Shown in pieces: positions 1,066 through 55,070 of a stretch of 64,000 bases of DNA. This DNA is from Diphasiastrum complanatum (taxonomy: Eukaryota; Streptophyta; Lycopodiopsida; Lycopodiales; Lycopodiaceae), in contig CM055109.1 of assembly GCA_029204225.1 (NCBI GenBank), forward strand, positions 45,942,966-46,006,965, given 5' to 3'. Numbering within the stretch: the first letter of the stretch is position 1; each line of letters starts with the position of its first letter. The position numbers were made by a program, and so were the translations under genes. The notes under the pieces are model-generated. The model was not told the origin of the DNA. It saw nothing but the letters and a program-made list of their open reading frames with translations, and made no database searches.

Positions 1066-1560
1066 TTAACACCCATGTAGTTATGAAGTATTGTATGGCA
1101 AAAAGCCAAATCTTAGTGATTTGAAAGTTTTTGGATGTACTTGTTATGTACATATCCCTTTAGAAACAAGGAAAAAGGAAGATGCCACTTCATTCAAAGG
1201 CATCTTTGTTGGTTAAAGTGAAAATAGTAAAGCGTAAAGGATATTTGATTCTATTACCAAGAAAGTTGTTGTAAGTAGAGATGTACTTTTTGATGATTCT
1301 CTCCAAGCCAAAGGAAAGGTGACTTCCAACAACACTTAACTTGTCAAGGATCATGCTATGGCCGAGGAGGAGCTTCATGAAGATGAAGACCAAGAGGAAT
1401 TTACTCAAAGTCCAAGGGTGACAAGAAGATCAACAAGGACAAGGATTGAGCCATCAAGGCTCACTTTTAGTGACAAAGGGGAGCAAAGGGAAGATTCTTA
1501 ACTACTCAACTCTTATACTTTCTTGACTACTATGCTTGATGAACCAACTAGTTTTGAGGA
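1066..1560 (+). pseudogene. Copia integrase C-terminal fragment and linker
   Basis: The translation contains YGKKPNLSDLKVFGCTCYVH followed by a segment equivalent to FVGYSENSKAYRIFD, with one stop where Tyr is expected, and then VVVSRDVLFDDS. These are the standard conserved blocks at the end of plant Copia integrases. An acidic linker with SPRVTRRSTRTRIEPSRL follows, leading toward the RT. At least three in-frame stops interrupt it. The left edge near 1066 is abrupt. Confidence 0.8.
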
Positions 1561-1578
1561 AGCAAATAAGTCTCAATA

Positions 1579-2301
1579 TTGGAGGAAAGCTACGCAAGTA
1601 GAGTTGCATTAATGGAAAATCAAACTTGGAAGCTTGTTGATCTACCTTATGGAAAGAAGCCTCTTACTTGTAAATGGATATATAGATTGAAATATAATCA
1701 AGATGGTTTCATTCATAAGTATAAACCTAGACTTGTAGCAAAAGGTTTTTTGCAAGTCAAAGGCATAGATTATGATGAAACCTTTGCACCTATTGCAAAG
1801 CTTGTAACCATTAGATTAATCATATGTCTTGCTACTTCTTTCAAATGGGAGCTCTTCCAACTTGATGTGACAAATGCTTTCTTGAATGGATTCTTGGAAG
1901 AGGAAATCTACATGTGCCAACCCGAGGGCTTCATCAAAGATGGAGAAGAAGAGAAGGTGTGTTTCTTGAAGAAGAGTCTTTATGGACTCAAGCAAGCACC
2001 AAGAGCATGGTACTCTAGGTTGCATTCCTATCTTATTTCCATTGGATTTGTTGTAAGTTCTTATGAGCCATCATTGTACTACAAATGTAATGATGGGAGG
2101 ATCATTATCTTAGTTTTATATGTTGATGACATTATACTCACAAAAAAAGATCTAGATGGCATCAAAGATGTAAAAATTACCTTGTCTAGTGAGTTTAAGA
2201 TGGTAGATCTAGGACTTCTAAAAGTTATATTTGGAACAGAACTCACTAGAAGTAATGATTTACTTTCATATGTCAATCTAAGTATGCTAGTTCAATCCTA
2301 G
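1579..2301 (+). pseudogene. Copia reverse transcriptase
   Basis: This 240-codon ORF carries the RVT_2 signature of Copia RT: CKWIYRLKYNQDG, YKPRLVAKGFLQVKGIDYDE, the palm motif QLDVTNAFLNG, KSLYGLKQAPRAWY and the catalytic box LYVDDIIL near 2117-2137. The Asp residues needed for catalysis are present. The frame is lost near 2280, where the sequence equivalent to SKYASSILAKFGM continues in another frame into the RNase H part. A functional polyprotein is therefore not made. Confidence 0.9.
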
Positions 2302-3086
2302 CAAAATTTGGCATGATTGATTGTAAAGGAGTTGAAATTCTCATGGAACTAAGTGTAAAAGTTTCTAAGGAAAGTGATGAAGCATCCTTTGAGGACATTA
2401 CTACCTATAGAATGCTTATTGGTTCCTTGATATACTTAACCATCACTAGACCTGATCTTAGTTTTTGTGTTGGCAAATTGAGTCGATACATGCAAAGTCC
2501 ATTAATATGTCATTGGAAAAGTGCCAAAAGGGTGTTAAGGTACATCTCGGCTACAAAAGACTTTGGCATAGTTTATGAAAGGACTAATATTTGTTTGAGA
2601 GAATACTCGGACTCAAGTCTTGCAGGTGACAAGATGGATAGAAGATCCAGAAGTGCATTTGCTACATTCTTATGTGGAGGAGCTATATCTTGGCTTTCCA
2701 AAAAGCAAGATACCATCTCTCTTTCATCAACAGAATCTGAGTATAAAGCTATGACAACAACAACAAAGGAGGTTCTTTGGATTAAAAGGCTTTTGGAGGA
2801 GCTTCATGTGATCAAGGATGAAGACATTCCATGCATATATTGTGACAATCAAGCAGCTCAACAACTTGCAAACAATCCAATCTTCCATGCTCGAACAAAG
2901 CACATTGAGATTTCACATTATTTTGTGAGGGAGAAAGTGCAAGCAAAGGAGATCAAGCTTATTCATGTTTCATCATCAGATTGCATTGTTGATATACTCA
3001 GCAAGGCATTGTCCAAAGATCCATTTGTAAAATTAAGATTGGCTCTTGGAGTTATAGATAGATCTATGCTAGATTTACCAAGCTAG
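2280..3086 (+). pseudogene. Copia RNase H domain
   Basis: A 257-codon ORF starting at 2313 contains YRMLIGSLIYLTITRPDLSF, the RNase H block REYSDSSLAGD, the Glu-bearing motif SSTESEYKAM, the Asp-bearing motif YCDNQAAQQLANN, then HARTKHIEISHYFVRE and a C-terminal tail ending at a stop. The three acidic catalytic positions (D, E, D) are visible. It is separated from the RT by one frameshift. A short purine tract (gaggag, 3093-3098) precedes the LTR. Confidence 0.88.
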
Positions 3087-3098
3087 AATTTTGAGGAG

Positions 3099-3846
3099 TG
3101 TGAAAAATGCGAAAATTATGCTTGGTCAAGGCCAAATCTATGTAAATAGGATGATTACACATGTGTGGAGCCTGTTCCCACGTGTGAAATAAATGTACAT
3201 GACATGTACCATATTCATATAGGTTGTACATTTGATTTAATTCAAGCTCTAGTGGCTAAAAAGGCCAAAATCTAGTTTTCTAGTCATATGACACATGGCA
3301 TCAATCTATTGATTGCATGAGCCACATCATTAGATTAGGTGCTTCATATAGTAGGAAAATGGACCAAAAGTGCTCAAAATAGAAAGTCTGATCCAAGTGT
3401 CAATTTTGCATGATGATTCATCATATGACAAAGCATCCTCACATGTGTGAGATCTGATGCATGATCAGTACCACGAGCTCCAAGAAATGTATATATAGAG
3501 GCATATTTGGCCATAAACAACAAGCAACACCAATCTTGATTTTGGAAGCAATTTTGTGTCAATCTCTCCATTTGTCTTCAATTGTTTTGATTGATTTGAG
3601 TTTCTATCATAGTGTAACTTGTTTTTAGGCTGGAGTCCGCCACCGTACTCTGACAAGTTTTCACACGTGTGAAACCAGGAAGTACATTTACCTTCATTAA
3701 TGATTGTTCTTGCTAGATTTTCATGCCTAGAATTGATCTAGATTGATCTAAATCTTGTGTAGATTGATAGATCAATTGTATCTAACATCCAATCTTTGTC
3801 GATCATTTTAGAATCCATTCTTGGTCCTATTTTGCAGATTTCCACA
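3099..3846 (+). repeat. Copia 3' LTR (748 bp)
   Basis: It begins TGTGAAAAATGC and ends GCAGATTTCCACA (TG...CA). It matches the reverse complement of 54240-55070 over nearly its whole length, apart from an ~85-bp segment missing here around 3340. It contains a TATA-like tatatata near 3491. CACGTG-like palindromes occur at 3157-3166, 3177-3186, 3440-3449 and 3661-3672. The next five bases are ACATC. Confidence 0.9.
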
Positions 3847-3933
3847 ACATCTACATTTGATGCATGGCAAAATGGAGCCTGTTACTGGATGCGTGTCTTG
3901 ACTCAATAATTGTACGTGCCTAGAACTTGGAAC

Positions 3934-10500: not shown

Positions 10501-13500
10501 TATGCAAGCATGAAGTATGCCAGCAGAGTAATGGGTATCTAGATATCTGTTGCTTTTGTTCAACTTATACCATCTAATATAGACTTTTTGTTGTCTTGCA
10601 GTTACCCTTATATTTGATGAAGTCGATGTCACTGGCTACACAATCTTTGAGGACCCCCAAGTATATCTATGCTCACACATCTATTCAAAACTCTGACATT
10701 GCTATTTCTTGCATTTGATATGCTAGCTACATCTAAAATGTGGAGATGTTCTAAAAGGCCAAATATTTGTATATTTCCATTTTCAGGTTCAAAGGGCAAT
10801 CACATATGCTCGGGAGGCTCACACTGGCCAGATGCGATTGACAGGAGAGCCCTACGTGACCCACTGCATCCATACGGCTAAGATTTTGGCTGCACTGGTC
10901 CCATCTCATGGAAAGCATGTAAACATTCTTCTTGTTGGCCTGTCTAGAATCAGGGATGCTGTGATAATAATACCTTTACGGATTTACTTGGCTTCTGATT
11001 TTAGTGAATGCTGATTTTAACAAAGAATGATGAATGTGACTTGCAAAAAGTCTTTTACATGTTTATAAGTGCTGGGACTTTTTCTTTGTAAAAAGGATTG
11101 AATAACTTTAACCATTATACATAGTATCCAGGATTCAAAATCTTTTGATACACCTTTCCGTATGTTATCTTGTCTTATCTAGTTGTAAGTATCAATAGCT
11201 TTTGGATGGATTTCATATGGTTGTTCTAATCAAGTTCCTATTGTATGAGGAAACATCTGTGGATATTGTTTTACAGAGCATGAAAGATCGTTAATGCTGG
11301 ATTATTTCAGTCCTGTAGTTTGATATTGTGAAAACATATCTTTTACTTGTATCTTCAATATCAAGTTTTAAATGTGCATAAGTGGTTGGAGTTTCTCTTG
11401 GTAAAATTGTTTGAGCAACTTTAACCATTATACATACTACCATTGATGGTATATGGTTAAGTAACAAACTAGAGGCTCAGAAGGTCATTCGCTATGTTTC
11501 AGGATTTAAAATATTTCGATACACCTTTGTTTACCTTATTTTATCAATGGTATCTTGCCTTATCTAGTTGTGAATGTCTATAACTTTTGGATAAATTTCA
11601 TACGGTTCTTTCAATCAAATCCTGTTGTATGAGGAGGTAGCATCTGTAAATATTGTTTTAGAGCATTAAAGATCGTTAATGCTGGATTATTTTAGTCCTG
11701 TAGTGTGATATTGTGATAATGTGTCTTGAATCCTTTGTTATGACAGAGGAGAGTCTAGATACTAATGGTAGCAAAGCAACTATTTCAAGCAGACTTTTGA
11801 CACGCAAAGTTTGTATAGCTACTCCTGTGAGTTTAAGGATTGCGGTATCATAAGGGGGGCCTTTATATTACATTGTTTGGTTACTGGTTGTCATGATCAG
11901 GTGAACGGCAGTGCTAAAACATGCAAAAATTTCCAGTAACCTAAGATCAGCTAACTATTGCCTTTATTATGTTTGTTTATGTGCTGTCCTTGATGTTGTA
12001 CATTCATACAAATGTGGATCTTATAATTTCATTATAACTACAGGCTGTAGACACGGTAGTCGCAGGAGTTTTACATGATGTCGTTGATGATACTGGCCGA
12101 AATTTGAAAGATGTCCGTGAGCATTTTGGAGATGATGTTGCAAAGCTTGTAGCTGGTGTCTCAAAACTAAGCCACATTAACCAAGTAAGTAATATTCCAA
12201 TCATTGAATGCGAGCTTTGGTTTGGACAGCTCCACTTATGTGCTTTGTCAGACCATTTTTCTGTTAGCAATGTTTTTTGCTAGTGACTACGCTCATCTTC
12301 TTTATCAATGTGTAGGAATGTGCACTCAAGAGTTTAATCTTTATGAAATTGGCAGTGCTCATCACTCACTGGTTAATTGGTATTGCCTTTGTTTCCATAT
12401 TATTTGCCTATCTAGCCTTTTAGTGTGCAGCTTGCCTTGACAACCTTACAATATTTTGATGTCATGTAGGGGGGCTATGGTTTCCAAGAATATTGACCAA
12501 AACTAGTTGATATAAGCTGGTCACATGATTTGTAAGGCAGCAGTCTTTTGTTGCATCAGCCGTGGTTACCCTTGTGTTTGCCAACCAACTCCCTTTTTAA
12601 GGATTTTGCATGTATTTTCTTTTTGAGCTATCTTATGTGATGGGTAATCTTCACATACAATCTGAGGATAATGTAAGAGCATGTCTTTACTATTTAGTGC
12701 TAGCAGTCATCATCACTGAATCTGCCCTACGCTTTTGGACGTCATCATGTTGGTCTATATGTGAACATTTTCACCGGTTGCACTTGCATCAATACTTGAT
12801 AAGGTTGTCATAGCAAAGTCACTTCACAGTATGCATGCAGATGGTAGTCCATAGTGTTAGCATTTTGAACATAATAACATGTTTTTCATGAGTTCTGGGA
12901 TGGCCATTTGGCAGCATTGCAAATACCATGTCACTAGAAATAAGGAGTGTGTATTGCCAACTTTATCAGCTAGTAATAAGTGTGCAATATAACTCAAATA
13001 CTAAGCTAAAAAATGGGCCTTATGTGCCTCATGTAGTTTAAGTCATAATAATTGGTCCTTCACGTATCTAAATGGACTTTAGGAGGTGCACCGGATATGA
13101 ATAGGCACCAATAACCTACATCTCTCCCTCTGCTCTTTCACATTATATCATTGTAGAGAACTTTCAATACTCTTTTTTTTGTTGTAATGTAGAAACTAAT
13201 GAGAATCTAGTGCTTTTTTATTCTCTCTTATATTTTTGTGTGGTTATCTTTCAATGTCATAATGATTGGCTCATGAAAGCTTCCCCTATTGATGACATTA
13301 AAAGGATGTCCTCGAAATTTATCAGGATATAACAAAAAATCCTGTTCCGTATCTTTTGGTACGGAAGTACTGATATTGAGGGCAGGGTTCAAAACAGGGC
13401 ACACTTTTAGGTTTAAAAAGATTAAGAACATTGAAGGGGGTGCACTTTTAGGGTTTTGGAAATCTGCTAAGCTGGAAACTGGCTGGACATCAATGAACTG

Positions 13501-16500
13501 ACATGGACTTATGTAGTTAGCACGGGAACTAGCGAACTGATAGGGGCTTACCCTAGTCTTGAGCACCCAACGTTTTGAAAATCCAGCATCCATGGTGGAG
13601 GAAATCCAGCAGCCATCAGAGCAAATTGTTTTGAGAAACTACCCTACAAGGGATTTTCAATGATTCTTGAAACAAGAAACAAAAACAGAATGTATCTTCT
13701 ATTTAACGCACAGAATGTTGTTTGTAAGTGCTTGAGAAACAAAAACAGAATATATCTTTTATTTAACGCACAGAATGATGTTTGTAAGTGCTTGTTCTGT
13801 ATGCTATGGAACTATGTATAAGGTGCTTGGTTCGTTGTCAATACTTGTGGCTTCCAGTTGTTTCTCCAACAATTTTGTTGCCTTTTGGCTTTAATATGGT
13901 CTATTTGGTGTTTGGAATATTGAGCATATATCTACATTTTTATGTTCCCACTATAAAGCTTTTGTTCACTTTATTTTCTTGCTCCTCTTGCTACTTCTTA
14001 TGCTTTTCAGTTTGAAGGGTTAAATTTGATTGTTTTCTCCATTAGCAATACCTGCATAGTTTCTCTGGTTGAAGATGTTGCTATATTTGGTTTGCGGCCT
14101 TTTTCGAACTTGGTGGCATTAAATACAGCACTATGTTGTCTTTGCAGTTGTTGCGGCGACACAGGCGACTCACAGCACATCAAAATGCATCAAGCAGTGA
14201 TCTTAATCCTGCTGAGGTATCATGATGTTTACTTTGGGAACAAACAACAGTTTGCTGGTTTGGATTACGTATATGAAAACATAAATTTGTCACTTGACAT
14301 TCATTTTTCAAAACAATCATATGCTTGTAGCTGGAAAGTTATGGGGTACAGTTTGTGAGCTTAATGTATTGAACCATAAAGAACCTCTTTAACATGTTTG
14401 TGCATAAGATAAAAGTTTCTTTTCTCTATAAAAATGTGAGCTTCTTTCTTGGGCTCAGAACTTTCAGATTTCTCATGAGGTCATCCTACGTAATTCGAAT
14501 AATATTTAAAAAAAATTGAATGCCAGATCATAGTAAAAAGCTTCAAGCAGTTTCATCTTTCATAGCTTTTAGGGTCACATATTTACATTCTAGCTGTCAT
14601 ACTGCTTATAACTGTTGAGATACTATGACTATTGAGATATAAGTTAGTATGACCAGCTCTTTTCCTTTTCTTGTAGCAACAAGGTAGATCTTGCACTGGT
14701 GAAGGACTGTGCATGAACCACAATTTCTGACTGTTGTAAGCAGTCTAATTCTGAAGCCACGCCAAGACAGTATTTCTATGGCTCAGCACCATTCACTTGG
14801 AAACATCTGGCTGACTGTTGAATGTTGATATTGACTTTGAGAGTACCACTAACTGGAATACTTGAAATTGAGTTCCTCTTCAGATAATCAAAAGGGAAAA
14901 GATCATATTTGAGCAACAAGAATGAAGTAGAAGTTTAGTAAAATAAAAACGTTCTAATATCCAAACTAAGGGCACACACACAACTAATCTAGTTCTGACC
15001 GACTGCATCTACCTGCATTTGATACCTCAGTTCCTGCGCAGGATTGCTCCACTTTGGCTTGTGAGCGTAATTGGGGTACGTCTATCTTATACACACAAAG
15101 AGACGCAACAGACTTCCTGTGGGGCAATGTGAGCAATTGGTGTATTCCAACACCAACCTCAAGCTAGTGACACATGCAAAAGGATGGCCATCCATCGTGG
15201 GCGAACCTAGATGGTTGCACTCTTACTTCTAACATTACAACAACTACGACATGCACTAAAGTTCATGTAGACGAAGAGATGTTTGCAAAGCTTCATTGTG
15301 AGATGACATATGAGAAGGAGAGGAGGCAGTGTAGGATAACGAGGGCTAAGTATTGGAGGTAATGTTTAATGATTACCCCTGAATGTCTAATTAGGACATT
15401 TAAGGCCATTGGGCCAAGCTTGTGTGCTATGACTAGAAGCTTATTTTTGGTAATGATAGTCTATGTTAGAGTTTGACTCTAGTCAATACTATATGTGCAT
15501 GAATATATGTACTATTTTGGTAGTGACTACTATCTAGGATGAATATAATCCATTTTATTGAGAGCTAGTAATCTTGGGAAATAACAATAGATCCAAGGTC
15601 GGCTATGTTGATTTTTTGGCAATGTTTGATGGTCCAAGGCTAACTCCCGAATACCCACAGTGAGGGTCCTATGGTGATTGTGTATGATGGATATAGCTAT
15701 CTCAATTACTATCCTCTAGATCAAGGGAGTATCAAAGGAGCCACATGATTGTGATCCTAATTATTGTGCTTTTTAGGTCCATGATCTTTTACCTCTAGCA
15801 GGCTAGATCCTCCATTTCACTAAAATCACATCTATGTAGTGTAGGGATCCTATTCACAGCTCCATCGCTTTCTCATCTGCCGTTGAAATGAGACTTAAGA
15901 ATCTCAAGGCATGAAGTATGAAGAAGGCCTTCTAAACACCATATATGGCTCTTTAAATGGTTTGATCAAGTTGAAGGTTGACTTCTCCCATAAGTTTGCT
16001 TATTCTTTGGGTACTACCCTTCTTGAGAATTGGACTCATCCAAGATGTGGGGTTCATGGTGTGTTTTTACTCTAAAGGTTTTGATAGATTCTCGTGTCAA
16101 CCATATTATATTGACATGATATGGTTGGTACCCATGGAGTGGTTTTGTGGTGTCCCTAATGCCCTCGTTACTTGCCTATAGAGAGGTGTCAAAGCACAGT
16201 TGGGGAATTCTTTGGGGTCTTGAAATGCCCTCAAGAGGTTGGTTTTCATTGGAACCTATCATGAGGCCCAAATTAACTTGATTTCAAGCTTAATAATGAG
16301 CTCTAGTTGATGTTTCTTGGGGGCCCCAGGGCTCTTGAGGTAGCACACTCTAGGTGATTACAATGGGCTTGATAATCGGACCGACTAAAGATATTGCCCA
16401 AAATAGTCCATTCGGTTATATGTGAAGCCTTCGATGATTAATTCATAAAGCTTTATTGGGCCTCCTATTAATGATCGTGCGTGCTATATGATAATAGTTC

Positions 16501-44900: not shown

Positions 44901-47900
44901 TAAGTCAAAATTTTTAACATCTTGGTTTTCAAAAACACACGTGCTTTGCAGAATTGTGACCAGCACTACAACAAATGTCTTGACCAGCTAGCTTGTATTC
45001 TGATGTCATGTAGCTCAATTGATGTTGGCATTCAAGTGAAACAGAATGTTTCCTAGCATTCAACTATGCTCCTTTATCCTTTAGTACCATTGTTTCTCCA
45101 GCATGCATACCTTCAAAAAGCACAGGACTTACAAAGAGTGTAAATTTTTACTTACAAAAACTCGAAGAAGGTGACACTACACTTTCATAACACTTGCGGT
45201 TAGTTTTAGCACTTTTTATAAGAAAATTATTGACTCTTCTGACAATGGCATGGTGTTCCTACAAGAATAAAACAAATAGTTGAAAGTTGTCAAGGCAATC
45301 AATTTGTCCAGTACAGGTTAGAAGTACTTGTGTAGTAAAGGTAAGATAATAAAGTCAACACTATTCTGAAACAAACCAAACACATGTCTCCAAGATGTCA
45401 ATGACACAGTGCTTGGGATTCAAACTTGCATCGGTTTGGTTTGAAGTTTCCTCTTTCCAAACTCAACATGTTGACCTTGACATTACAAGCAATTCAATCT
45501 AAGATCTGATAGATATAAGACTAGTTGGAATTATGGTAGATATTCTTGGAGCACATATTCTTGAAGAATAAGCAAAGTGGAATAAATAACTTTCACTATA
45601 ATTACTTGTTTACTATACTTGGTAAGCATTTTACCTTCAAGTGTAGCCCCATCAAGTGTAAGTACGGAAGACTTAGAAACAAATTTCTCCAAATTACCAC
45701 TGTCAAGTAGGATCTAAACAGTTTCTTGCTTAACTTTACCCAAGAGCCGGACCATTTTACCTTCAAACTGATCGTTGTGGACATCCATTTCAAATGTTAT
45801 GCAATAGCCAAAGTCACCTTTCTCTCTATGACATGCTCCTCTTTGTTCATGGCCTCTGCTTCCTATCTTCGTTTCTCGATGCACCTTGAAGCGTAGTGCC
45901 CTAGGTTGCCGCATCTGAAACAAGTAGTTATCCTCATCAACTTGCTTTTGTGTATGGCCTTTTCCTTTCTTCTTTAGATGCTCAGTCTTCTTCTGATTCT
46001 TTGTCTTTGTCGTTTAAAAGCTTGCCTTGTCCTGGGTACTTCCACATGCATGAACGCCTACCCTTGTTGCCTTCTTCCTTTTACCTCCACTCAAAGTGGA
46101 TTCCATCCTCTAAGCCACACAAATACCTTTCTCCAGATCTTGAGGATTGGAAAGCTTCAACTGAATTTTCATGTGAACGTTCTTCAGTCCATAAATGAAA
46201 TACTTCACCTGCATAGCTGCTCGCAAATCAGGAACATGGCTATAAAGTCCTCGAAGTTCTTGAGTGCAACATTTGTACACAGCTTCTGAGCTAAGGTCTA
46301 GCTTCCTTGATGTTGTACATGGGTGCAAACTTGTTCAAGAACAGCTCCTTGAACTTGGTCCACATCTCGATTTTAGGAACATCGTTATAGTAATCTGTTG
46401 CAACCACAACCGTGACCACCAATTAGACATGAGATCTGTACTTGCATCTGTGTTGCGTAAGCATTTAGCATTACATAAAGTACATGTCTAAGAAGAAGAA
46501 ATAGTCAGAAATTATACATTGCTCAATCAATATCTTTAGAATCTTTATCCTACCTAAATTCTTGTATGCTCTACGTCATGCAATTTTTGTCATCAATCAA
46601 CAACTTTTGTCATGACTCATTAATCAACAAACAAGGCTAGCTTGTGCTTTGCTATTCTTGGAGTTTCACATTTGGACAAAGTTTTTTAGGTGTTGACTTG
46701 CAAAAGATTGGAAGCTTTTTTGTTCGGAGTTGACCTAACAGTTAGTTTGAAAGCTTTGTTCATTATTTTGCCATCCATTTCGGGCCCATGTAGCAGTTAT
46801 TTCCCTCCAAAATTGAATCCTTGAGTTCTTTTTGTAGCATTAGCTTAGTGCTTAGTGCCATCTAGATTATGTCGCTTTCTTATGATTATGTTTCCTTCTA
46901 ATTGCAGGCTTTGGACTCCTGTTGCTGGAGAGTTTGATGACTACATTGTTAATCCCAAGCCAAGTGGTTATCAGGTAAAAGTACTTTGTTTTCATTAGAG
47001 CTTATATTGTTGTGTAATGGTACGTGGAACCTTATTGATTTTCTTACCCATTCAAATTGCTCAGTAGATACATACACTCAAAGTATCTCTTTCATCCTTT
47101 GATTAGTCCTTCCAGTGATCATCACATTCAAGATGATTGGAAGACCTAAAGCTTGGAGAGGTTTCTAACTTCAGTATTCTATCAACCAAAAGGGTATAGT
47201 GAATCGACCTTACTAGTCACTCGCCACATCACTAGGTAGTTCATAAAGTCCAACCATTCGCTCTACATAGGTCTAAGCTAGGTCAAAAGCTGTAGTTGCC
47301 ATCCTCAAGGTAGCAAATTTGGTCAATTAATCACCACAAGCCAAATTTCATCATTACCTTTGTGAGTCCTGGGAAAACCAACCACAAAATCTATCGAGAT
47401 ATTCTCCCATCTCTCATTGGGAACCTTCAACATGCCACTTGCTCTTAAGAGTTGCGCTTGATTGATTCAGAGGAATGCCAAGCCCCCATACTTGGGGCTC
47501 CTCTTCACAAGACAATCTTTAGCATGAGACTGAAAACTTCCAGTTGCTCAGGGAAAGGGTATTCTTCCCTAGTCAGCCTGGAGCAGTTTTGCTTCAGGAG
47601 GCACATAGGTGACACAAGGAGTAAGTGTCGTCTTTTTGATAGTTTGGTCAGTCCTGCAATTACCCCACAACTATGCATGTGGCAGAGGCACAGTGCACTG
47701 GGCTCACAATATCTGATTGGGATGTTGTCGGCTATGATATGTGGCCCATTTGTTCCAGATCAGATCATTTAGTTTAGTTTGTTATGCCTTCTCTAAAGTT
47801 GATAAGCCATCTTCAGGTTGATCATTTATGTTCAGAGAGTTATGGTGTTTGGTGACAAAATTGTGATTAGAAGAAGATATTCATGGTTGGCACTTACATC

Positions 47901-48827
47901 ATCTAAAGGGCTCCATGAGTAGGGACATCATATATCTTGGTATTCTTAGGCTTCACATCCACCAGATTTTCCATTGGCATTTCCTTCTCGGTTTCTTTAA
48001 AGAGGACTCTCTCTTATATATGGTAATGTATCTACATATCATATGTTCAGTGTGTCTGATCAAGCCCCTTGGCAAACAAACAAAGTCACCTCCTTGAGAT
48101 AGGAGCCATTAGAGACTTGATCTTAATGCAATAGAATCAGCGGCCGCTGTCACATAATCCATTGTGATAGCTCCAGGTTTCACACCTCTGGCAGGTGGAC
48201 ATAGGTTGCTTCCAGAGGATCCTCAGGAAGATACCATTTTCTTGATGAGAGACAAGTGAGCACTTTGTCTTTTGTTGCCCAATTTACTATGAGATTAGAG
48301 GGAGATATCATTGCCGTTTTTGAGACCAGCGAGTTATGGTTTGCTCCTTGATATTGCATGAAGAACAAAGATGTGTTGCCATAATGATATGAGAGATGTT
48401 GCACTTGAGAGGAGCGGAATGTTGCAATATCAGTATTGGCGACAGGGTGCAGTCTCACATGACATCCTTTTTTCCTAGATGGTGCTCCCATATTGAGTCA
48501 AATAAAGAAGTACGGGATGATGCGGCGAACATTGGAACTAGAGACCGACAGCAACTTGTGGGACAAGCATCTTTGCAAGCTGTCTGTCAATGCATACATA
48601 CTAGGGCGCACGCCCATTTTGAGCCAAGCATTTTGATCTGGTTAGTCTTATTTATTTGGATGGACAGCTCTAGAAGTTACTATCTTAAGATCTCGTTTTC
48701 CACTATTAGTTTCACTACTAGTTTCATTTTAGTTTTGTCAGGGAGATGTACTTCGCTCTCACAAGAAGATACACACTTGAAATGCACCTTTTAGTCTTAT
48801 GTACCTTTAGGTACCCAACATACATAA

Positions 48828-48881
<54 letters not shown>

Positions 48882-51800
48882 TGAGACAATTCTCAAGCAG
48901 ATTGAAACGAGAATGAATTTCTCCTTGGATAAGTTGTCCAAACTTTCAGTCAAACTATCATTCTAATGAGCCATTCTGTGGAATGTTTGAGTGGATGAAT
49001 CACTTTTTTCACGTGTACAAGTAAAGTTTTCTTTGCTAGAGCATGGTACTTGGAAGTAACTGGAACTGTAGATACCTGCTGCAATCAAATCCTGAATCCT
49101 GGCTCGTAAAGAAATTTTCCATTTCCAAACTATGTTTGGTGCAAACATTTGAAGCTAGTATGTTGCCGTATCATGTACAAAGCAATGAACTATTTGAGAC
49201 TCACACTGTTTTCAGCATTTGTCTTTGGAGATTTGTTATCTTGTTAGAGGCTCAATTTCTGCAATCCTAGAAACTGCTTTCAATGTCTATTGAGTTTGAT
49301 GTTGTGGTTTTTTTCTTCAGTCCCTTCATACGGCCGTCAGGGGGCCAGATGGAGCACCTCTAGAAGTTCAAATACGAACACAGGTATATTCCTAAACTCT
49401 CGATTAATAGACTTGAGGTTTGATTTTTCTTTTCAAGAGAGAATACAGAGTACAGACCAACGACGTTATAACTTCAACCATAGCATGTTGGTGGTGGCCA
49501 TTGATGTAGATTCAGAAAAAGGCCACTCCCCCCTTTCAGAATGTGCTTGAGTTGCCACTCCATGGCGCACAAGGTGGCATCCCAACCTGCCACATATGGG
49601 CAATTGAAGTGTAATTTGGGGTCCAAACACCTTTCACGGTAAGTTGGGATGTAACTAGCAACTCAAGATCCAACAGCCAATCCAAGCAAACTAGTAGAAA
49701 GATATCCAATAGCAAAGTGCAGTTCTAGTGGACTTTACATTTAACCTGCACAATCTGAAAGGGGGTGGTCTGCATGCAAGAACTCTTGGTTGTCAACAGA
49801 CCCAAAGCTCAGCTATGTAATAGAAGCCCAAAGGGAATGCTAGTTTGGAAGTTGGGACACCCCTAAAGTTCAAACCTTATCACCAGTGAAAGATTTCAAA
49901 GCAAATTTTCTGATGCTTAGCTCTTTGACAGGCTGTAATGGTTCACAGTGGAGTTCAGTACTTTAAAGTAGTACAATTTAAAGCTATGTTTTAAAGTTTA
50001 CGCAAGTTCTATGCCTAGTCAATGAAGGAAAGTCGGAGATAGTTTGGAGCTTCCTGTTTACTGACACTTCAATGATTATGTGAAGGGAATGCATGAATAT
50101 GCAGAATTTGGTCATGCTGCTCATTGGCTGTATAAGGAAGCTGGTGCAGCAAGAGAAAGTGCAGAAGTTCATAGTGTTCCAAGTATTGGAGTGAGAACCA
50201 AACCTGAAGATCCAGCTTGCAGCACACATGTTGACCAGCAGTCTGTTGGTAGCATTCAGATAGTCAATGGATTGCATGAAGATATGATGGCCCTCCCTGA
50301 GGCTTTGCAAGTTGGTCATCCAGCTTTGAGGATTGAGGATGGAAGGCTTCTTGCAGCTGTGATTGTGAGGTTGGCTATGACCTAAGATTGGGGAAATCTG
50401 TTCATTATTCATTCAGTTTTCAGTGATTTTTTGTGAGACCCATTTCAAAATCCACATTCAAGTAGAAAAGTTATTATGTGAAAAGGAGCAAGGTTTAATT
50501 GAATATATCAAAACACTAATCTACACACAGATGAATAATCGGTCACTGGAATATCTTTCAAAATAAAACTTATAATCATAGTTCACTGGAATTATTGCCG
50601 TGACACAGAATTGAGAATGAAGGACAGACTCTTTTGGTAGCCGTGAGTTTTGCTCTTCATGTACGCGAGGCTGTTGCTGCCGGTAGATTCGGTAATCAGA
50701 GACAACGATGGTTAACATATGCACGCTTATACCAGAAGGTATGATAAGTCAACAAAACAGTTAGGTGTAGGGCTTGCCCAATGGCTTCAAGTGCAAAGTT
50801 GGAAAAGATGTCATAAAGATGTGTTGTTGGTAGGCTTCAAACCAATGGTGGTTTGCACCTGGGCATGGTGATTGGAGTACCTGTCTGGAGAAGTACACAC
50901 TATGTCGAGATGGCATGTACCACAAGGTCTGTCATTATTATTTTCTAAAAAACTCAACTGTGTTCAACTCCTGCGTGCTTTTTGCAAGGTTCATTTAACT
51001 GTTTTGTGGCCTGTAGCATTCATGCTTATTGTACATGTGAGCACTGTGGCTTGTACATTAACTTTATCAGCTTTAGTCATACATGCTCTGCTCACGAATC
51101 AGTTGACCTCAATCTGATATTCTAGGGACTAGTTTGTATTCTAAGCTTCAGCTTTCTTTGGAAAAGCTCCAAGAACAACCTTGTACAGATTAAAGATAAT
51201 ACCTCCTTTCTATAATTAATTGCTTCATCACAGCTGCAGACAGTACCTTTTTGTCCATCCTCAAATGTCATTTGCTTGCACACTATTGCTCATTGTTTGA
51301 GTTGCTGAAAAAGCTTGAGCACATAGAAGCCGTTTACGATTGATCAAAGAAATCAACCTGTCTATTCAAGAAATCAACCTAGTTGTTCATATCCTAGTTG
51401 CTATGCAGCTGTGCGTCCAACCGTTTGTGCAATCAGGGATTGAAATGCTCTTAGTCCTTGTTCACTAGTCCTTTTCAAAGCCTGTAGTTAGGCTCTTCAT
51501 TGTAGAAGATCATGCAGATGAGTGATCACTGATATATGAAAATGACCTGGGCGCATTTATGGACCATTAGCTTCCTGGATGTACAATGGAGATTGCTAAT
51601 TAAGGTTGTTCTTGTAATCTAATTTACAGAATTTGTTGTAGGAGTTCCAGAACTGTTGTCATTTAGAATTTTGCAAATTCTAGAATTGTCAGATTTTGTC
51701 ATAGTACAGGTATTTTGGCAGGTGTTTAATAGGAAAACTGTAGGATGCTTCTCCAATGTATCATTTTAACATATTGATGGAGATTTTGTTCCCTTTCTGA

Positions 51801-52497
51801 TGGTTCTCAGCAAGATCAATTTGGACGATCACTTCCCACATTTATCCAGCTTTTGGACTTAAATGAAAGTGAAAAAGAGGAATATAGAGAAGTGATGTTG
51901 ATGGTGGAAGAAGGAAGACATGTTGAAGTAAAATCTGACTCTCAGTTGCATGGCCATTGTCTGGTCACTGATGATGGGACTGCTTTTTCTACAGTAGCAT
52001 GCCTTAACAATAAGGTAGTGTGTACATATTTCTGCAGCTCTATACAAATTTTCTTATATGAATCATTTAGAGTTTATTGAATTTGACAAAAGAAGCTTGC
52101 AACTATGCAAGGTGATCATGTTTGACATAAGCTTACTCTGCAAACAGTCAGTATTCAAAACACATTGGGGACTGTTTTAAATCTTATAGGCACATTCTTA
52201 GTGGTTGATTGACAGGTAAGGCTCCTTCGGTCAATGCTGCAGTGGGAACAAGAGCTTCGACAGGAAGCTCTTTATAAAAGCACCTCCCAACTGGACTCTG
52301 ATCATTCAGCAACTTTGAATGAAGTTCTCATTATACAGTGGCCAGATGGCGAGATAATGCGCATGCCTGCTGGTAGCACTGCTGGAGACCATGCTCGACG
52401 AATGGGTCTCGAGGGTCGATTTGTGTATATCAATGGCCAAGTTGCTCTTCCTCACATGAAACTCAAGGATGGGGACATAATTGAAATTAGAGAATAA
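6701..52497 (+). CDS. RSH: RelA/SpoT homologue (plastid (p)ppGpp synthetase/hydrolase), 18 coding exons
   Basis: RSH proteins transfer pyrophosphate from ATP to GDP/GTP to form (p)ppGpp and, through an HD domain, hydrolyse it. In plants they act in plastids. The exons, joined at 17 splice sites, keep one open frame of 968 codons. An S/T/R-rich N-terminus (probable transit peptide) comes first. The HD domain spans residues ~200-405: [29 protein letters not shown], then [11 protein letters not shown] and LEDLCF. The synthetase domain spans ~540-655: [65 protein letters not shown]. The plant-specific block is [17 protein letters not shown]. The C-terminal TGS-like end is [20 protein letters not shown]...[11 protein letters not shown]. 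There are no EF hands, so it is not the Ca-dependent CRSH. The C-terminal half differs from Arabidopsis RSH2/RSH3, and the subfamily is not decided here. No stop or frameshift was seen, so it is probably functional. Confidence 0.93.
7465..7510. repeat. (CT)n microsatellite
   Basis: About 20 CT units followed by short C runs (tccccctccccccctt), in RSH intron 1. It makes a spurious Leu/Ser ORF. Confidence 0.9.
7520..10050. other. RSH intron 1, no recognised gene
   Basis: AT-rich sequence. A 100-codon ORF at 7693-7995 and a basic Ser/His-rich ORF on the minus strand at 9702-9914 show no motif I recognise. No splice-supported exon fits between exons 1 and 2. Confidence 0.5.
10060..10386 (+). repeat. 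Dispersed repeat with open frame, copy 1
   Basis: An 83-codon frame from 10135 includes [20 protein letters not shown]. At first it looks like an RSH exon, because it lies just before exon 2. However, the DNA at 10155-10260 aligns with 48300-48410 in intron 12 (both contain gagatat.attgcc and an aaagatgtgt...gagagatgt block), so it is repetitive. It is probably part of an unclassified transposon captured in intron 1. Confidence 0.5.
10602..10660 (+). CDS. RSH: RSH exon 2
   Basis: It follows the acceptor tgtcttgcag and ends CCCCCAA|GTATAT. It encodes [19 protein letters not shown] (to residue 216), the segment immediately before the HD domain. The two leading bases complete a codon from exon 1. 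Confidence 0.85.
10787..10918 (+). CDS. RSH: RSH exon 3: start of HD hydrolase domain
   Basis: Residues 217-260, phase 0 on both sides, acceptor tttcag and donor GCAT|GTAAAC. It encodes [17 protein letters not shown] and [17 protein letters not shown], which carries the first metal-binding His of the HD fold. Confidence 0.95.
12044..12184 (+). CDS. RSH: RSH exon 4: HD motif
   Basis: Residues 261-307, between acceptor actacag and donor CAA|GTAAGT. It encodes [19 protein letters not shown] and [20 protein letters not shown]. The His-Asp pair of the HD fold is present. The following acidic pair is DD, where bacterial SpoT has ED. Confidence 0.96.
14148..14216 (+). CDS. RSH: RSH exon 5
   Basis: Residues 308-330, acceptor tttgcag and donor GAG|GTATCA. 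It encodes [20 protein letters not shown], a basic loop between HD-domain helices. Confidence 0.9.
15390..17330 (+). repeat. Candidate LTR region upstream of a primer-binding site
   Basis: The stretch before the primer-binding site at 17331 has no coding motif. Such a site normally lies directly after a 5' LTR, so part of this stretch is probably an LTR. Its left edge cannot be fixed because no second copy is in the window. Confidence 0.35.
17331..17342 (+). other. Retrotransposon primer-binding site (tRNA-iMet type)
   Basis: TGGTATCAGAGC is the standard plant LTR-retrotransposon site complementary to the 3' end of initiator tRNA-Met. The same string occurs at 60115 and 60967 beside LTRs. 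The gag/pol expected downstream is not recognisable. The Gypsy RNase H at 17903 lies on the other strand. Confidence 0.6.
17903..18427 (-). pseudogene. Gypsy RNase H fragment
   Basis: The minus-strand ORF reads [60 protein letters not shown], then [10 protein letters not shown] and VADALSRM. These are the end of Gypsy RT and the RNase H domain. Neighbouring RT, integrase and LTRs are absent. It sits in RSH intron 5, antisense to the gene. Confidence 0.88.
18784..18878 (+). CDS. RSH: RSH exon 6: HD domain, ADRLHN motif
   Basis: Residues 331-361, acceptor ttgcag and donor CAAT|GTAAAG, ending in phase 2. It encodes [20 protein letters not shown] and then DRLHNMRT, the conserved Asp/Asn-bearing motif of RSH hydrolases. 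Confidence 0.96.
19493..19807. mobile_element. hAT-like non-autonomous element, old copy (intron 6)
   Basis: The right end is GCAACTATG, the inverse of CATAGTTGC. The interior shows alternating GTTTC/GAAAC palindromes (gaaacgtgtttctg on the left, gaaacgcgtttctggg on the right). It resembles the better preserved copies at 22231-23016 and 37578-38005. The left end is approximate, and no target duplication is evident. Confidence 0.45.
20236..20368 (+). CDS. RSH: RSH exon 7: end of HD domain
   Basis: To residue 406, acceptor ggtacag and donor CAA|GTATTC. It encodes [39 protein letters not shown] and AVLQ. This is the typical junction between hydrolase and synthetase regions. Confidence 0.95.
20547..20726 (+). 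CDS. RSH: RSH exon 8
   Basis: Residues 407-466, acceptor ctacag. It encodes [17 protein letters not shown], then a very basic patch ([15 protein letters not shown]) and an acidic run. The open frame continues past 20726, but only the donor ACG|GTAGAG keeps phase with exon 9. The 9.57-kb intron 8 follows. Confidence 0.88.
20930..21340 (+). repeat. Intron-8 segmental duplication, copy 1
   Basis: This segment aligns with 22085-22230 plus 23017-23240. Shared blocks include tctctag.(a/g)tttccac, ttccttat.gtgctt.ag and ggtttcaac/ggttttagt. Copy 1 lacks the transposon present in copy 2 and therefore represents the empty site. Confidence 0.6.
22231..23016. mobile_element. hAT-like non-autonomous element with G-rich core
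   Basis: The ends are CATAGTTGCAGCG and (reverse complement) CATAGATGCACCG. The 8-bp flanks ACACAGAG and ACCCAGAG differ at one base. Next to each end lie palindromic GATTC/GAATC arrays (aatcgcgattctg and gaatcacgattcagaatc). A long T run (22282-22309) and an A run (~22928) lie inside. The 8-bp duplication and CA..G-type ends point to the hAT superfamily. No transposase is present. Confidence 0.7.
22557..22790. repeat. G-rich/C-rich tandem array
   Basis: Repeated units of roughly 35-40 bp combine a GGGGG run, gcagtag, a CCCCC run and a spacer (cgggaaatag). Successive units are diverged. The G-runs and C-runs can pair into hairpins, and the G strand has many runs of 4-7 G. Its spurious antisense ORF is Pro/Gly-rich. 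Confidence 0.75.
23233..23451 (-). pseudogene. Gypsy integrase core fragment
   Basis: Contains [29 protein letters not shown] and [20 protein letters not shown]. The second Asp (NDRD) and the Glu (TERTNQSME) of the D,D-35-E triad are visible. Homology to integrase stops near 23233. Confidence 0.88.
23493..24100 (-). pseudogene. Gypsy integrase zinc-binding region
   Basis: Two minus-strand frames: 24100-23883 with [20 protein letters not shown], then 23819-23493 with [40 protein letters not shown] and CQVNKAERL. The H-x3-H...C-x2-C pattern is the integrase N-terminal zinc domain. The integrase core start [20 protein letters not shown] follows and carries an Asn where the catalytic Asp (MDF) normally stands. 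Confidence 0.88.
24082..24591 (-). pseudogene. Gypsy RT tail and RNase H
   Basis: The ORF begins just after the deletion with the connection region ([20 protein letters not shown]), then [55 protein letters not shown] and [10 protein letters not shown]. Glu replaces the usual Asp in [10 protein letters not shown] (normally DTDASD). A frameshift near 24100 leads into the next ORF with [10 protein letters not shown]. Confidence 0.9.
24588..25031 (-). pseudogene. Gypsy zinc knuckle and protease fragment
   Basis: 147 codons. The knuckle [14 protein letters not shown] fits CX2CX4HX4C. The retropepsin-like part reads [15 protein letters not shown]: the expected active-site D-S/T-G is DDGS here, so the catalytic triad is altered. 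It stops at the deletion point before the RNase H. Confidence 0.85.
25010..25834 (-). pseudogene. Gypsy gag
   Basis: 274-codon ORF. Residues ~70-190 hold the Retrotrans_gag core: [58 protein letters not shown] and [12 protein letters not shown] short coiled-coil-prone segment precedes it ([18 protein letters not shown]). The last part is frameshifted relative to the zinc-knuckle ORF that overlaps at 25010-25031. Confidence 0.92.
26060..26640 (+). pseudogene. Gypsy reverse transcriptase remnant (sense)
   Basis: Broken frames read [49 protein letters not shown], then after a gap [26 protein letters not shown] (in place of YIDDILV) and RVKYLGHVV followed by [12 protein letters not shown]. The block between the VDDLLD motif and the FGLTNA motif is deleted. 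It is one of few intron elements in the same orientation as RSH. Confidence 0.8.
26641..26692. repeat. (CA)n microsatellite
   Basis: About 26 uninterrupted CA units between the Gypsy RT remnant and an antisense Copia remnant. Confidence 0.95.
26716..27530 (-). pseudogene. Copia RT/RNase H remnant
   Basis: The minus-strand frames read [71 protein letters not shown] and [20 protein letters not shown], then a broken RNase H. YADD-like sequence lies just upstream (near 27490). Several frameshifts. It lies in RSH intron 8, antisense to the gene. Confidence 0.85.
26730..26877. repeat. Short direct duplication (period ~93 bp)
   Basis: The segment from atctcatctagaaattcact to gtggttgttgata (26731-26777) recurs with a few changes at 26824-26870. 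It lies at the broken RNase H end of the Copia remnant. Confidence 0.75.
27560..30290. other. Remainder of RSH intron 8, no recognised gene
   Basis: A weak GDWVYLLV-containing stretch at 27900-28030 (+) may be a decayed Gypsy integrase C-terminus, comparable to the better preserved one near 56000. Otherwise I see only short ORFs without motifs. Confidence 0.4.
30296..30480 (+). CDS. RSH: RSH exon 9
   Basis: Residues 467-527, acceptor gatgtgtag and donor TACC|GTGCGT, ending in phase 2. It encodes [20 protein letters not shown] and [20 protein letters not shown], the helical lead-in to the synthetase domain. Confidence 0.95.
30490..32060. other. RSH intron 9, left part, no recognised gene
   Basis: Short ORFs without motifs. 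Composition matches the other introns. Confidence 0.4.
32075..32570 (-). mobile_element. LINE fragment D (ORF2 C-terminal region)
   Basis: The minus-strand translation gives [40 protein letters not shown] and [20 protein letters not shown]. It parallels fragment C ([38 protein letters not shown]). It is cut on the 3' side before the zinc-finger motif. Confidence 0.75.
32570..33832 (-). mobile_element. LINE fragment C (RT thumb to zinc-binding end of ORF2)
   Basis: From ~33830 downward the translation shows a degraded catalytic box [12 protein letters not shown] (normally YADD), [53 protein letters not shown], then [20 protein letters not shown] and a terminal CX2C...H motif ([20 protein letters not shown]). 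These are the standard blocks of a non-LTR retrotransposon RT and its C-terminal Cys/His domain. Several stops. The 5' edge meets the (GA)n tract at 33833. Confidence 0.85.
33833..34375 (-). mobile_element. LINE fragment B (ORF2 end and 3' UTR with TC tail)
   Basis: A GA tract (33833-33850), i.e. TC on the element's strand, is followed by tattaatgtctata and then the UTR. The C-terminal coding end reads [15 protein letters not shown], similar to [14 protein letters not shown] in fragment A and [15 protein letters not shown] in C. It is 5'-truncated exactly where the next (GA)n tract begins at 34376. Confidence 0.8.
34376..34480. repeat. (GA)n(AAG)n microsatellite
   Basis: 34 GA units pass directly into about 12 AAG units. 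The tract separates LINE fragments B and E, and is read as the 3' tail of E. Confidence 0.95.
34376..34842 (-). mobile_element. LINE fragment E (3' UTR with (GA)n(AAG)n tail)
   Basis: The tail is (GA)n 34376-34443 and (AAG)n 34444-34480, then ctttattaatatctttt.catgcc, the same 3' UTR end as in fragments A and B. No coding part remains. Confidence 0.75.
35359..35860 (-). pseudogene. LINE ORF2 C-terminal zinc-binding region
   Basis: Reads [60 protein letters not shown] and [20 protein letters not shown]. The Cys/His spacing fits the C-terminal domain of LINE ORF2. It joins ORF1 sequence at ~35850. Confidence 0.82.
35819..36441 (-). pseudogene. LINE ORF1 (coiled coil and RRM-like)
   Basis: Starts [20 protein letters not shown], continues after a frameshift with [20 protein letters not shown] (heptad-like), then [14 protein letters not shown], one in-frame stop, and an RRM-like stretch [37 protein letters not shown]. 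Order and motifs match LINE ORF1 RNA-binding proteins. Broken by one frameshift and one stop. Confidence 0.72.
36753..36809. repeat. (GA)n microsatellite
   Basis: 28 GA units immediately beyond the 5' end of LINE fragment A. Confidence 0.95.
36990..37269. mobile_element. hAT-like non-autonomous element, partial copy
   Basis: Shares with 37578-38005 the blocks tgatttcatttcacacaata, ataaatgaactgctct and catttgatacccat, a T-rich run, gggaaatcctgg and a palindromic right end with terminal GTGCAACATTG. The left end is not recognisable. Confidence 0.55.
37578..38005. mobile_element. hAT-like non-autonomous element with perfect 8-bp duplication
   Basis: Ends CTGTGTTGCAG and, inverted, CAAAGTTGCAG. 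TATTAAAT flanks it on both sides (37570-37577 and 38006-38013). Palindromic GATCCGG/CCGGATC arrays occupy both subterminal regions (gatctcgatccggatcgag; gcgatccggatcgcgttcc). There is no transposase. Confidence 0.75.
38018..38059. repeat. Tandem duplicate of the element's right end
   Basis: A ~41-bp unit containing ggatcgtggcctgcaacttt and gtattaaattaaac is repeated directly after the right target duplication, so the element end and its flank occur twice. Confidence 0.8.
38771..38837 (+). CDS. RSH: RSH exon 10: start of synthetase domain
   Basis: To residue 550, acceptor gtttgcag and donor AAAA|GTAAGC. It encodes [20 protein letters not shown]. The GR.K pair corresponds to the nucleotide-binding GR.KS/H segment of RelA/SpoT synthetases. 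This exon is too short to stand out as an ORF. Confidence 0.93.
39428..40147 (-). repeat. Copia 3' LTR (720 bp)
   Basis: On the minus strand it runs from TGTCAGAAATGG to TTTCGCGACA. The 39720-40147 part is a near copy of 42907-43346. Confidence 0.9.
40040..40997 (-). pseudogene. Copia RNase H region
   Basis: Minus-strand ORF from 40997: [91 protein letters not shown] and [20 protein letters not shown]. After a stop near 40420 it continues with [32 protein letters not shown] and [12 protein letters not shown]. Lys replaces the usual Glu of STTEAEY (KAKY), so the active site is damaged. Confidence 0.9.
41033..41416 (-). pseudogene. Copia RT fragments with deletions
   Basis: Frames give [40 protein letters not shown], then jump to [10 protein letters not shown] and [28 protein letters not shown]. 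The palm segment between EPLPENRKV and IYGLKQAS is lost, and so is the catalytic YVDD block after ILTIFV. Confidence 0.85.
41690..41900. repeat. Insertion with (CT)n tract inside the Copia element
   Basis: A (CT)n run of ~39 units (41823-41900) and ~130 bp of unrelated AT-rich sequence separate the end of integrase (KIVNSEP) from the sequence expected next ([19 protein letters not shown], 41690 downward). Confidence 0.75.
41900..42905 (-). pseudogene. Copia integrase
   Basis: 320-codon ORF. The GAG-pre-integrase zinc motif reads [18 protein letters not shown] ... CEACKKGK. The core has [53 protein letters not shown] and [18 protein letters not shown], so the D,D,E triad is visible. C-terminal blocks are [20 protein letters not shown] and [16 protein letters not shown]. 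It ends at an inserted (CT)n tract. Confidence 0.92.
42907..43346 (-). repeat. Copia 5' LTR, truncated (440 bp)
   Basis: Direct repeat of the outer part of the 3' LTR (shared ctagttaacgctaatcaact, tttcagctggg.gtgaagccc). Homology stops at 42907 with pol sequence on the other side. Confidence 0.9.
43352..44566. other. RSH intron 10, right part, no recognised gene
   Basis: Short ORFs only. No family motif. Confidence 0.45.
44567..44700 (+). CDS. RSH: RSH exon 11: synthetase catalytic Asp exon, GC donor
   Basis: Residues 551-594, acceptor tgtatag. It encodes [20 protein letters not shown] and [22 protein letters not shown] contains the conserved Asp and Arg of the synthetase. To join to exon 12 in frame, the exon must end CACAG|GCATGT, a GC donor. 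The nearby GT at 44705 would shift the frame. Confidence 0.93.
45590..46400 (-). pseudogene. Gypsy gag remnant with zinc knuckle
   Basis: Minus-strand frames give [20 protein letters not shown] and QDLEKG (end of Retrotrans_gag), then [14 protein letters not shown] (CX2CX4HX4C), then a protease-like stretch with [12 protein letters not shown]. Multiple stops. In RSH intron 11, antisense to the gene. Confidence 0.72.
46908..46974 (+). CDS. RSH: RSH exon 12
   Basis: To residue 617, acceptor attgcag and donor TCAG|GTAAAA. It encodes [20 protein letters not shown] and then YQ. FDDYI and GYQSLH (completed by exon 13) are strongly conserved synthetase motifs. Bacterial enzymes have NGYQS where this has SGYQS. 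Confidence 0.94.
47210..47455 (-). pseudogene. Gypsy integrase fragment
   Basis: Reads [40 protein letters not shown] and IN. The first catalytic Asp ([11 protein letters not shown]) is present; the sequence decays afterwards. It may belong to the same element as the gag remnant in intron 11, split by RSH exon 12, or to another element. Confidence 0.72.
48050..48500 (+). repeat. Dispersed repeat, copy 2
   Basis: Aligns with 10060-10330 in intron 1, most clearly at 48300-48410. The open frame of copy 1 is not maintained here. Confidence 0.45.
48831..48878. repeat. (CT)n microsatellite
   Basis: About 24 CT units in RSH intron 12. Confidence 0.95.
49321..49383 (+). CDS. RSH: RSH exon 13: catalytic Glu exon
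   Basis: Residues 618-638, exactly 21 codons in phase 0, acceptor ttcttcag and donor ACAG|GTATAT. It encodes [20 protein letters not shown] and Q. EVQIRT carries the conserved catalytic Glu of the synthetase. Confidence 0.95.
50086..50369 (+). CDS. RSH: RSH exon 14: end of synthetase domain and linker
   Basis: Residues 639-732, acceptor tatgtgaag and donor GTGAG|GTTGGC. It starts [20 protein letters not shown], continues with a low-complexity acidic/Ser linker, then [15 protein letters not shown]. An earlier GT at 50365 would put a stop into exon 15, so the donor at 50370 is preferred. Confidence 0.9.
50609..50738 (+). CDS. RSH: RSH exon 15
   Basis: To residue 776, acceptor tgacacag and donor GAAG|GTATGA. 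It encodes [20 protein letters not shown] and [14 protein letters not shown]. The frame is fixed by two bases carried over from exon 14. Confidence 0.9.
50834..50926 (+). CDS. RSH: RSH exon 16
   Basis: Residues 777-807, 31 codons, acceptor ttggtag and donor CAAG|GTCTGT. It encodes [20 protein letters not shown] and CRDGMYHK, a Trp/Cys-rich block characteristic of this class of plant RSH proteins. Confidence 0.9.
51811..52014 (+). CDS. RSH: RSH exon 17
   Basis: Residues 808-875, acceptor gttctcag and donor AAG|GTAGTG. It encodes [20 protein letters not shown] followed by an acidic helix and a less conserved stretch. Confidence 0.92.
52216..52497 (+). CDS. RSH: RSH exon 18: C-terminal TGS-like domain and stop
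   Basis: Residues 876-968, acceptor ttgacag. It encodes [20 protein letters not shown], then [40 protein letters not shown] and [11 protein letters not shown] with a TAA stop at 52495. The order W..G....P.GST..D.A...G.........V.....L..GD..EI is the ubiquitin-like TGS pattern, here placed at the extreme C-terminus. Confidence 0.95.
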   Translation, partial: VRLLRSMLQWEQELRQEALYKSTSQLDSDHSATLNEVLIIQWPDGEIMRMPAGSTAGDHARRMGLEGRFVYINGQVALPHMKLKDGDIIEIRE

Positions 52498-53400: not shown

Positions 53401-53439
53401 CCAGTGATCTAACCTTTGTTGACAGGCGAAAGGGCTATA

Positions 53440-53649
53440 CTACGAGAGATCTTCAACCCCACAAACTCTACATCTCTTTTTGTACTTAACCAATTTAACA
53501 CCTCCTTGAGGTTCTACTTCCACCTCAAGTACTATGTCATAAAGATCATGGAGTACAAACAAAGACTCCATTCGAACTTTCCAAATAGCATAATTAGTGG
53601 ATGTGAGCCTTTCACTAGCTTCAGGCAAAAAACCACCCATTGATGCCAT
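53440..53649 (-). pseudogene. Copia gag N-terminus
   Basis: MASMGGFLPEASERLTSTNY, AIWKVRMESLFVLHDLYDIV and LEVEVEP. This is the usual Copia gag opening (L..NY..W...M...L....L...V). Homology stops near 53480. Confidence 0.8.
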
Positions 53650-54223
53650 TTTAAATGTGAAAAAACACTAGAAACTCTTAACGGTTTCTCTAAGAGATCC
53701 GAACCTATAGTCTTCTAGCAATTTGAAAGCTTATAGACACAATCCTATCACTCATGAACCAATCTAGAATGATGGAAATTTAGATTCTAGTCTCAATCTT
53801 GCAAAATCATTCCTTATGATTTTTGGCAATATCTCTCTGAACTTCAACATGCACTCAAAAAATAAGAGAAACTCATTTAATGCACCTGAATCAAGCTTCA
53901 AATTTAATTTTTTGTCTGATCTAATCCAAGAACAAATCATAGGAATAGAATCTCTATAGAAAAAGCTTGAATTTGCACTAAAAATCTCTAAATTTGGGTG
54001 TGTGAGTCAAATCATACATAAATTTAAATTTTTTCAACCAAAACCAGATCTGTACAGCCCCACGCATGTGAAATGTACTCCTATAGTCCACAATAAGTTC
54101 TGGTTGAAAAATTGTGAGTATACCTATCAAACTCGCCACATCAAAATTAGCTAGTTTCCTAAAACTTGCTAATTTGGGCTTAGTTTTGGATCAATCCCAT
54201 CAATATCAACAAATCCTCTTGTA

Positions 54224-54239
54224 CTTGGCTTTGATACCA
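54224..54239 (-). other. Primer-binding site (tRNA-iMet type)
   Basis: Directly inside the LTR, the element strand reads TGGTATCAAAGCC, one mismatch from the usual TGGTATCAGAGC. Confidence 0.75.
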
Positions 54240-55070
54240 TGTGGAAATCTGCAAAATAGGACCAAGAATGGATTCTAAAATGATCCACAAGAGGGATTGG
54301 ATGTTAGATACAATTGATCTATCAATCTACACAAGATTTAGATCAATCGAATCAATTCTAGGCATGAAAATCTAATAAGAACAATCATTAATGAAGGTAA
54401 ATGTACTTGATGGTCTCACACGTGTGAAAACCTGCCAGAGTACGGACTCCAGCCTGAAAATAAGTTACACTATGATAGAAACTCAAATCAATCAAAACAA
54501 TTGAAGACAAATGGAGAGATTGACACAAAATTGCTTTCAAAATCAAGATTGGTGTTGCTTGTTGATTATGGCCAAATATGCCTCTATATATACATTTCTT
54601 GGAGCTCGTGGTACTGATCATGCATCAGATCTCACACGTGTGAGGATGCTTTGTCATATGATGAATTATCATGCAAAATTGAAACTTGGATCAAACTTTC
54701 TATTTTGAGCACTTTTGGTCCATTTTTCTACTATATGAAGAATTGGTAAGAAATCTTCTAGAAGTCAAAACTCGCCTACTTTAGCCTTTTCCACACGTGT
54801 GAGCATACCTCTACACATGAGATGTGACACCTAATCTAATGATGTGGCTCATGCAATCAATAGATTGATGCCATGTGTCATATGACTAGAAAACTAGATT
54901 TTGGCCTTTTTAGCCTCTAGAAATTGAATTAAATCAAATGTACAAGCTATATGAATATGGTACATGTCATGTACATTTATTTCACACGTGGGAACAGGAT
55001 CCACACATGTGTAATTATCCTATATACATAGATTTGGCCTTGACCAAGCATAATTTTTGCATTTTTCACA
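54240..55070 (-). repeat. Copia 5' LTR (831 bp)
   Basis: TGTGAAAAATGC ... GCAGATTTCCACA on the minus strand. It has an ~85-bp segment (about 54742-54827) absent from 3099-3846. CACGTG-type palindromes occur at 54416-54427, 54632-54643, 54792-54801, 54981-54990 and 55003-55012. Confidence 0.92.

Follow-up and report, generated by a model that had tools for sequence, protein, structure and literature searches.

The window analysed here, a stretch of 64,000 nucleotides from Diphasiastrum complanatum, carries an RSH (RelA/SpoT homologue) gene bounded by two pieces of Copia retrotransposon in opposite orientation. This arrangement had been claimed in an earlier note on this DNA and was recovered in our analysis, with the 3' piece on the plus strand, the 5' piece on the minus strand, and the RSH exons between them. 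From left to right, the features are as follows.

1..1075 (read to about 1077), plus strand: interrupted open frame, retroelement-like and by eye Gypsy-like, abutting junction J1
1066..1078, no strand assigned: junction J1, the broken inner end of the Copia 3' piece; the frame upstream stops at 1077 and the Copia frame is recognised from 1079
about 1076-3846 (inner end 1066-1078), plus strand: whole Copia 3' piece, from the SH3-like domain through the 3' LTR
1079..3086, plus strand: remainder of Copia pol (SH3-like domain, RVT_2, RNase H region), with stops and frameshifts
3099..3846, plus strand: 3' LTR, 748 bp, TGTG...CCACA, from sequence reading and self-comparison
3847..3851, plus strand: 5-bp flank ACATC outside the 3' LTR, putative copy of a target-site duplication
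10790..52494, plus strand: RSH gene (RSH1-like), inside the putatively inverted segment; this extent excludes the gene start
53430..53440, no strand assigned: junction J2, the broken inner end of the Copia 5' piece; the gag-like frame was followed by eye to 53439
55070 to about 53439, minus strand: whole Copia 5' piece, with LTR, primer-binding site, leader and gag start
53439..53649, minus strand: start of Copia gag, with one frameshift (DUF4219, E 2.1e-6), traced by eye
54220..54239, minus strand: primer-binding site TGGTATCAAAGCC and following bases, adjoining the 5' LTR
54240..55070, minus strand: 5' LTR, 831 bp, from sequence reading and self-comparison
55071..55075, minus strand: 5-bp flank outside the 5' LTR, ACATC on the element strand
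55076..55597, minus strand: probable section of a Gypsy chromovirus 3' LTR, the putative Copia target, directly after the chromodomain and a G run
55657..56951, minus strand: decayed Gypsy chromovirus pol (RT, integrase-like region, chromodomain), from Pfam and reading by eye

The RSH gene was traced by tblastn with RSH1-like probe sequences, which gave 18 rows. Of these, 17 follow the protein order along the plus strand within 10.79-52.49 kb, including one at 14.1 kb that covers just 8 residues. The out-of-order row, at 45.7 kb, is poor (27%) and contains a stop. Pfam placed TGS and DUF7589 above cut-off and HD_4 slightly below its own; comparison with the PDB gave a weak match (E 0.001) between one exon and GTP pyrophosphokinases. 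Junction J2 lies about 0.94 kb beyond the RSH stop codon, so that none of the exons found is broken. The gene spans at least 42 kb, with Gypsy and Copia remnants within its introns. A minus-strand Copia with LTRs in order, 91% identical, occupies 39727-43346.

The 3' piece begins just upstream of the SH3-like domain, which matched SH3_retrovirus in Pfam at E 1.4e-15, and its RVT_2 reverse transcriptase (Pfam E 1.4e-67) lies downstream of the integrase-side domains, as in elements of Copia type. A decayed RNase H region was named by eye; Pfam returned no family for 2259-3083, and a shorter piece of it gave chance-level matches only. Both LTRs have TG...CA ends, the 3' LTR being directly preceded by the purine-rich tract AATTTTGAGGAG and the 5' LTR followed by a sequence that resembles the usual initiator-Met primer-binding site; a search of viral contigs for the pattern of this site gave 0 matches. 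The protein evidence for gag of copia type applies to the gag start of the 5' piece (Retrotran_gag_3 reached only 0.13), which also matches a gag at 58354-58449 (37.5%, E 3.3e-6). In the same region, an open frame for 303 aa of copia-type gag (Retrotran_gag_2, 7.2e-37) occupies 58291-59202 and ends about 60 bp before two tandem units at 59261-60978. These units lie about 853 bp apart, are 91% identical and each end in a short TGTTGG...CAACA stretch followed by TGGTATCAGAGC; they have the look of a tandem TRIM-like element.

The inner ends of both Copia pieces are approximate, having been placed by eye from reading frames. The pieces are complementary and do not overlap: the 5' piece ends early in gag and the 3' piece starts past the integrase core, so that neither contains the integrase core, and the protease and the larger part of gag are also gone. 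From the general size of Copia elements, we assume that the missing interior amounts to about 1.8-2 kb.

Alignment of the two LTRs, proposed in the earlier note as a check, was carried out and gave 96.2% identity (713 of 741 ungapped columns, 28 columns differing; K2P 0.039); the 3' LTR lacks 87 and 3 bp relative to the 5' LTR, which in turn lacks 6 and 1 bp. The 87-bp indel may be a private deletion or a difference between two subfamilies. In a self-BLAST of the window (matches of at least 40 bp, E up to 1e-3), each Copia LTR paired solely with the other, and the two form the longest inverted pairs among the 25 listed of 153, aligning without gaps over 243 and 298 bp at 97%. Neither this comparison nor tblastn with the RT and gag fragments as queries found further copies of the family within the 64 kb; the non-self tblastn matches, at 27.5, 41.2 and 58.4 kb, were weak (33-44% identity). 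An 18-base LTR pattern gave three matches in genome contigs (Ligilactobacillus, Rickettsiales and a Marinomonas MAG), which were taken as chance.

The two pieces are also linked by the sequence immediately outside them. The same five bases, ACATC, are read on the element strand outside both LTRs, in agreement with the earlier note. The outer LTR ends were set by the primer-binding site, before which an LTR ends, and by the purine tract, after which one begins, and not by seeking a repeat, so that these flanks were not picked to match. Squaring and summing the 5-mer frequencies of the window gives a chance match of 0.00133, or 1 in 750; this is a little likelier than the figure of about 1 in 1000 in the earlier note, and an integration preference could raise the value somewhat. 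Checked in the same way, the Copia with in-order LTRs at about 39727-43346 has 5-bp flanks that differ at ends assigned by eye, and such footprints are therefore not always retained in this window.

The sequence beyond the 5' LTR points to the probable target. The chromovirus pol is decayed: RVT_1 was found at 56951-56790 on the minus strand slightly below the Pfam cut-off (E 2.3e-6), and the chromodomain matched Chromo at E 9.8e-6 when stops were entered as X. Three integrase-like pieces and a stop-free chromodomain piece gave no Pfam match. A run of 34 C bases at 55598-55631 (a G run on the minus strand) stands at the expected position of the chromovirus polypurine tract, just before its LTR, the start of which is assumed from the usual form of chromovirus LTRs. 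The Copia landing point appears to lie about 527 bases inside this 3' LTR. If there was a single insertion, the bases from 3852 onward should be the remainder of the chromovirus LTR, with ...ATAGGACATC running straight into TACATTTGATGCATGG in intact copies. Within the window, a second copy was found neither of the chromovirus LTR stretch (best non-self match 30 bp at 83%, E 0.008) nor of the flank at 3847-4100 (best non-self 16-18 bp, E 0.54). Likewise, the 254 bp that follow the 3' LTR do not match the Gypsy LTR stretch, a result that is uninformative, as a continuation and not a copy is expected there. A Gypsy gag seen by eye at 4800-4675 on the minus strand gave nothing convincing in Pfam.

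These observations are probably best explained by a single Copia insertion that was cut in two when one breakpoint of a later, end-joined inversion fell within it. The Copia would have inserted, on the minus strand in terms of the window, in the 3' LTR of the older Gypsy chromovirus, duplicating ACATC. Later, the Copia may have suffered a double-strand break somewhere from gag to the SH3-like domain; together with a second break about 50 kb away, this may have been rejoined the wrong way round by end joining, at the cost of about 1.8-2 kb of Copia and of further sequence at the distant break. Everything from 1066 to 53440, the RSH gene included, would thereby have been turned, carrying the Copia 3' half and its ACATC to the far side. 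When an element is broken internally and inverted in this manner, its 5' piece retains its outer flank and its 3' piece is moved, with the LTR facing inward and the broken end outward. The observed topology is as expected: the 3' LTR faces inward at 3846, the 5' LTR faces outward at 55070, and both broken ends point leftward.

The junctions fit this history less completely. The earlier note had proposed an insertion split by inversion, and the flanks, the complementarity and the topology fit that proposal; the continuity that would accompany it, from 1-1065 into 53439, is not visible. A clean inversion joins 1-1065 to 53439 on the minus strand, and three-frame readings of each junction showed no continuation of the left-hand frame there, so that loss of sequence must be assumed at that point. 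Four pieces of this frame, each of at least 25 aa, gave a best non-self E of 0.47 by tblastn against the window, and Pfam found no family in the longest piece (94-723), the Gypsy naming of which rests on reading by eye. The missing continuity would be explained if sequence had been deleted at that end, or if the frame had been truncated beforehand.

The weights that we place on the competing explanations are matters of judgement. Among the alternatives, separate insertion of two members of the same Copia family, which were later truncated by unrelated deletions and share their flanks by chance, would be the least implausible, though we consider it unlikely. J1 and J2 have no visible common partner and the LTRs differ by the 87-bp indel, both of which would be consistent with independent copies. 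Plant Copia families are often abundant, which also counts in favour of two insertions, and a priori two members of one family within 52 kb could be several times as probable as a split element. Against this, the flanks would match by chance at only the 1-in-750 rate, the opposite orientation and lack of overlap would be an additional coincidence, and the window yielded no family member beyond these two. In our judgement, the footprint outbalances the two-copy prior unless the family is very dense.

A homologous crossover that produced the inversion from two oppositely oriented copies, comparable to that described for Galileo, seems less likely still. The exchange could have occurred between LTRs, or between the interiors of two full copies that were later truncated. 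In the LTR-LTR variant, re-flipping 3847-54239 would produce a pol-LTR-gag join at the left end and, at the right end, a solo LTR flanked by a perfect duplication of ACATC. As long inverted repeats (the 243- and 298-bp blocks at 97%), the LTRs could have supported such pairing, and exchanged flanks are a signature of these events according to the Galileo report (PMC2775673). As described there, inversion 2z3 of Drosophila buzzatii arose by crossover with exchanged target duplications, and it resembles our locus in its oppositely oriented copies and in target duplications shared across the inverted segment. It differs in involving two chimeric copies of a DNA transposon and ectopic recombination, whereas the Diphasiastrum complanatum locus holds two truncated halves, probably of one Copia. 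The crossover would, moreover, require a second element, whether as a tandem join or a full copy, plus two separate truncations, and just one flank pair can be checked, the other ends being missing. An assembly artefact, with the segment flipped or misjoined at repeats, is very improbable: repeats do lie at both segment ends, but the window is free of any N, and unlike sequences meet at J1 and J2 with no visible overlap for misjoining, leaving the inverted LTRs as the remaining possible flip site.

Splitting of one Copia by an end-joined inversion, the reading that we prefer, has a precedent in the Orp region of African rice, where an inversion broke within the LTR retrotransposon R16 (Osr14), giving R16.1 and R16.2 (PMC3060143). 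About 4.3 kb was lost from the interior of R16, a 4.3-kb deletion flanks the inverted segment, and the authors were unable to order inversion and deletion in time (PMC3060143). On the preferred reading, the two cases are alike in a breakpoint inside an LTR retrotransposon, two fragments, the loss of kilobases from the interior and a loss at the far end, which in the present case is an assumed one. They differ in that the rice inversion was shown against an uninverted species, whereas the present one is deduced from target-site footprints alone, and in that the Diphasiastrum complanatum segment carries the RSH gene. The use of the footprint itself resembles that in the maize p1/p2 cluster, where distant Eninu LTRs were paired as one element by their identical 5-bp flanks (PMC2686159). 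Distant LTRs are assigned to a single element through the same 5 bp in both cases; the Eninu LTRs were parted by other insertions, and the available text reports no inversion there.

The anatomy of a split element is ordinary in kind, and since rice already shows one, the gain would be one further case. If the preferred reading is right, the inversion is younger than the Copia insertion, which would date to about 1.5 million years ago if the maize rate given in PMC2686159 is applied, a rate that may differ in Diphasiastrum complanatum. Annotation would then score two truncated elements where one existed. There is also a slim chance that the LTR inverted repeats (about 750-830 bp, 50 kb apart) could flip the RSH segment repeatedly, leaving its orientation polymorphic within the species. 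With one insertion split by inversion, the locus would represent a small inversion that carries a gene and is recognisable in a single genome without a relative, its footprint being the target duplication of the element that it broke.
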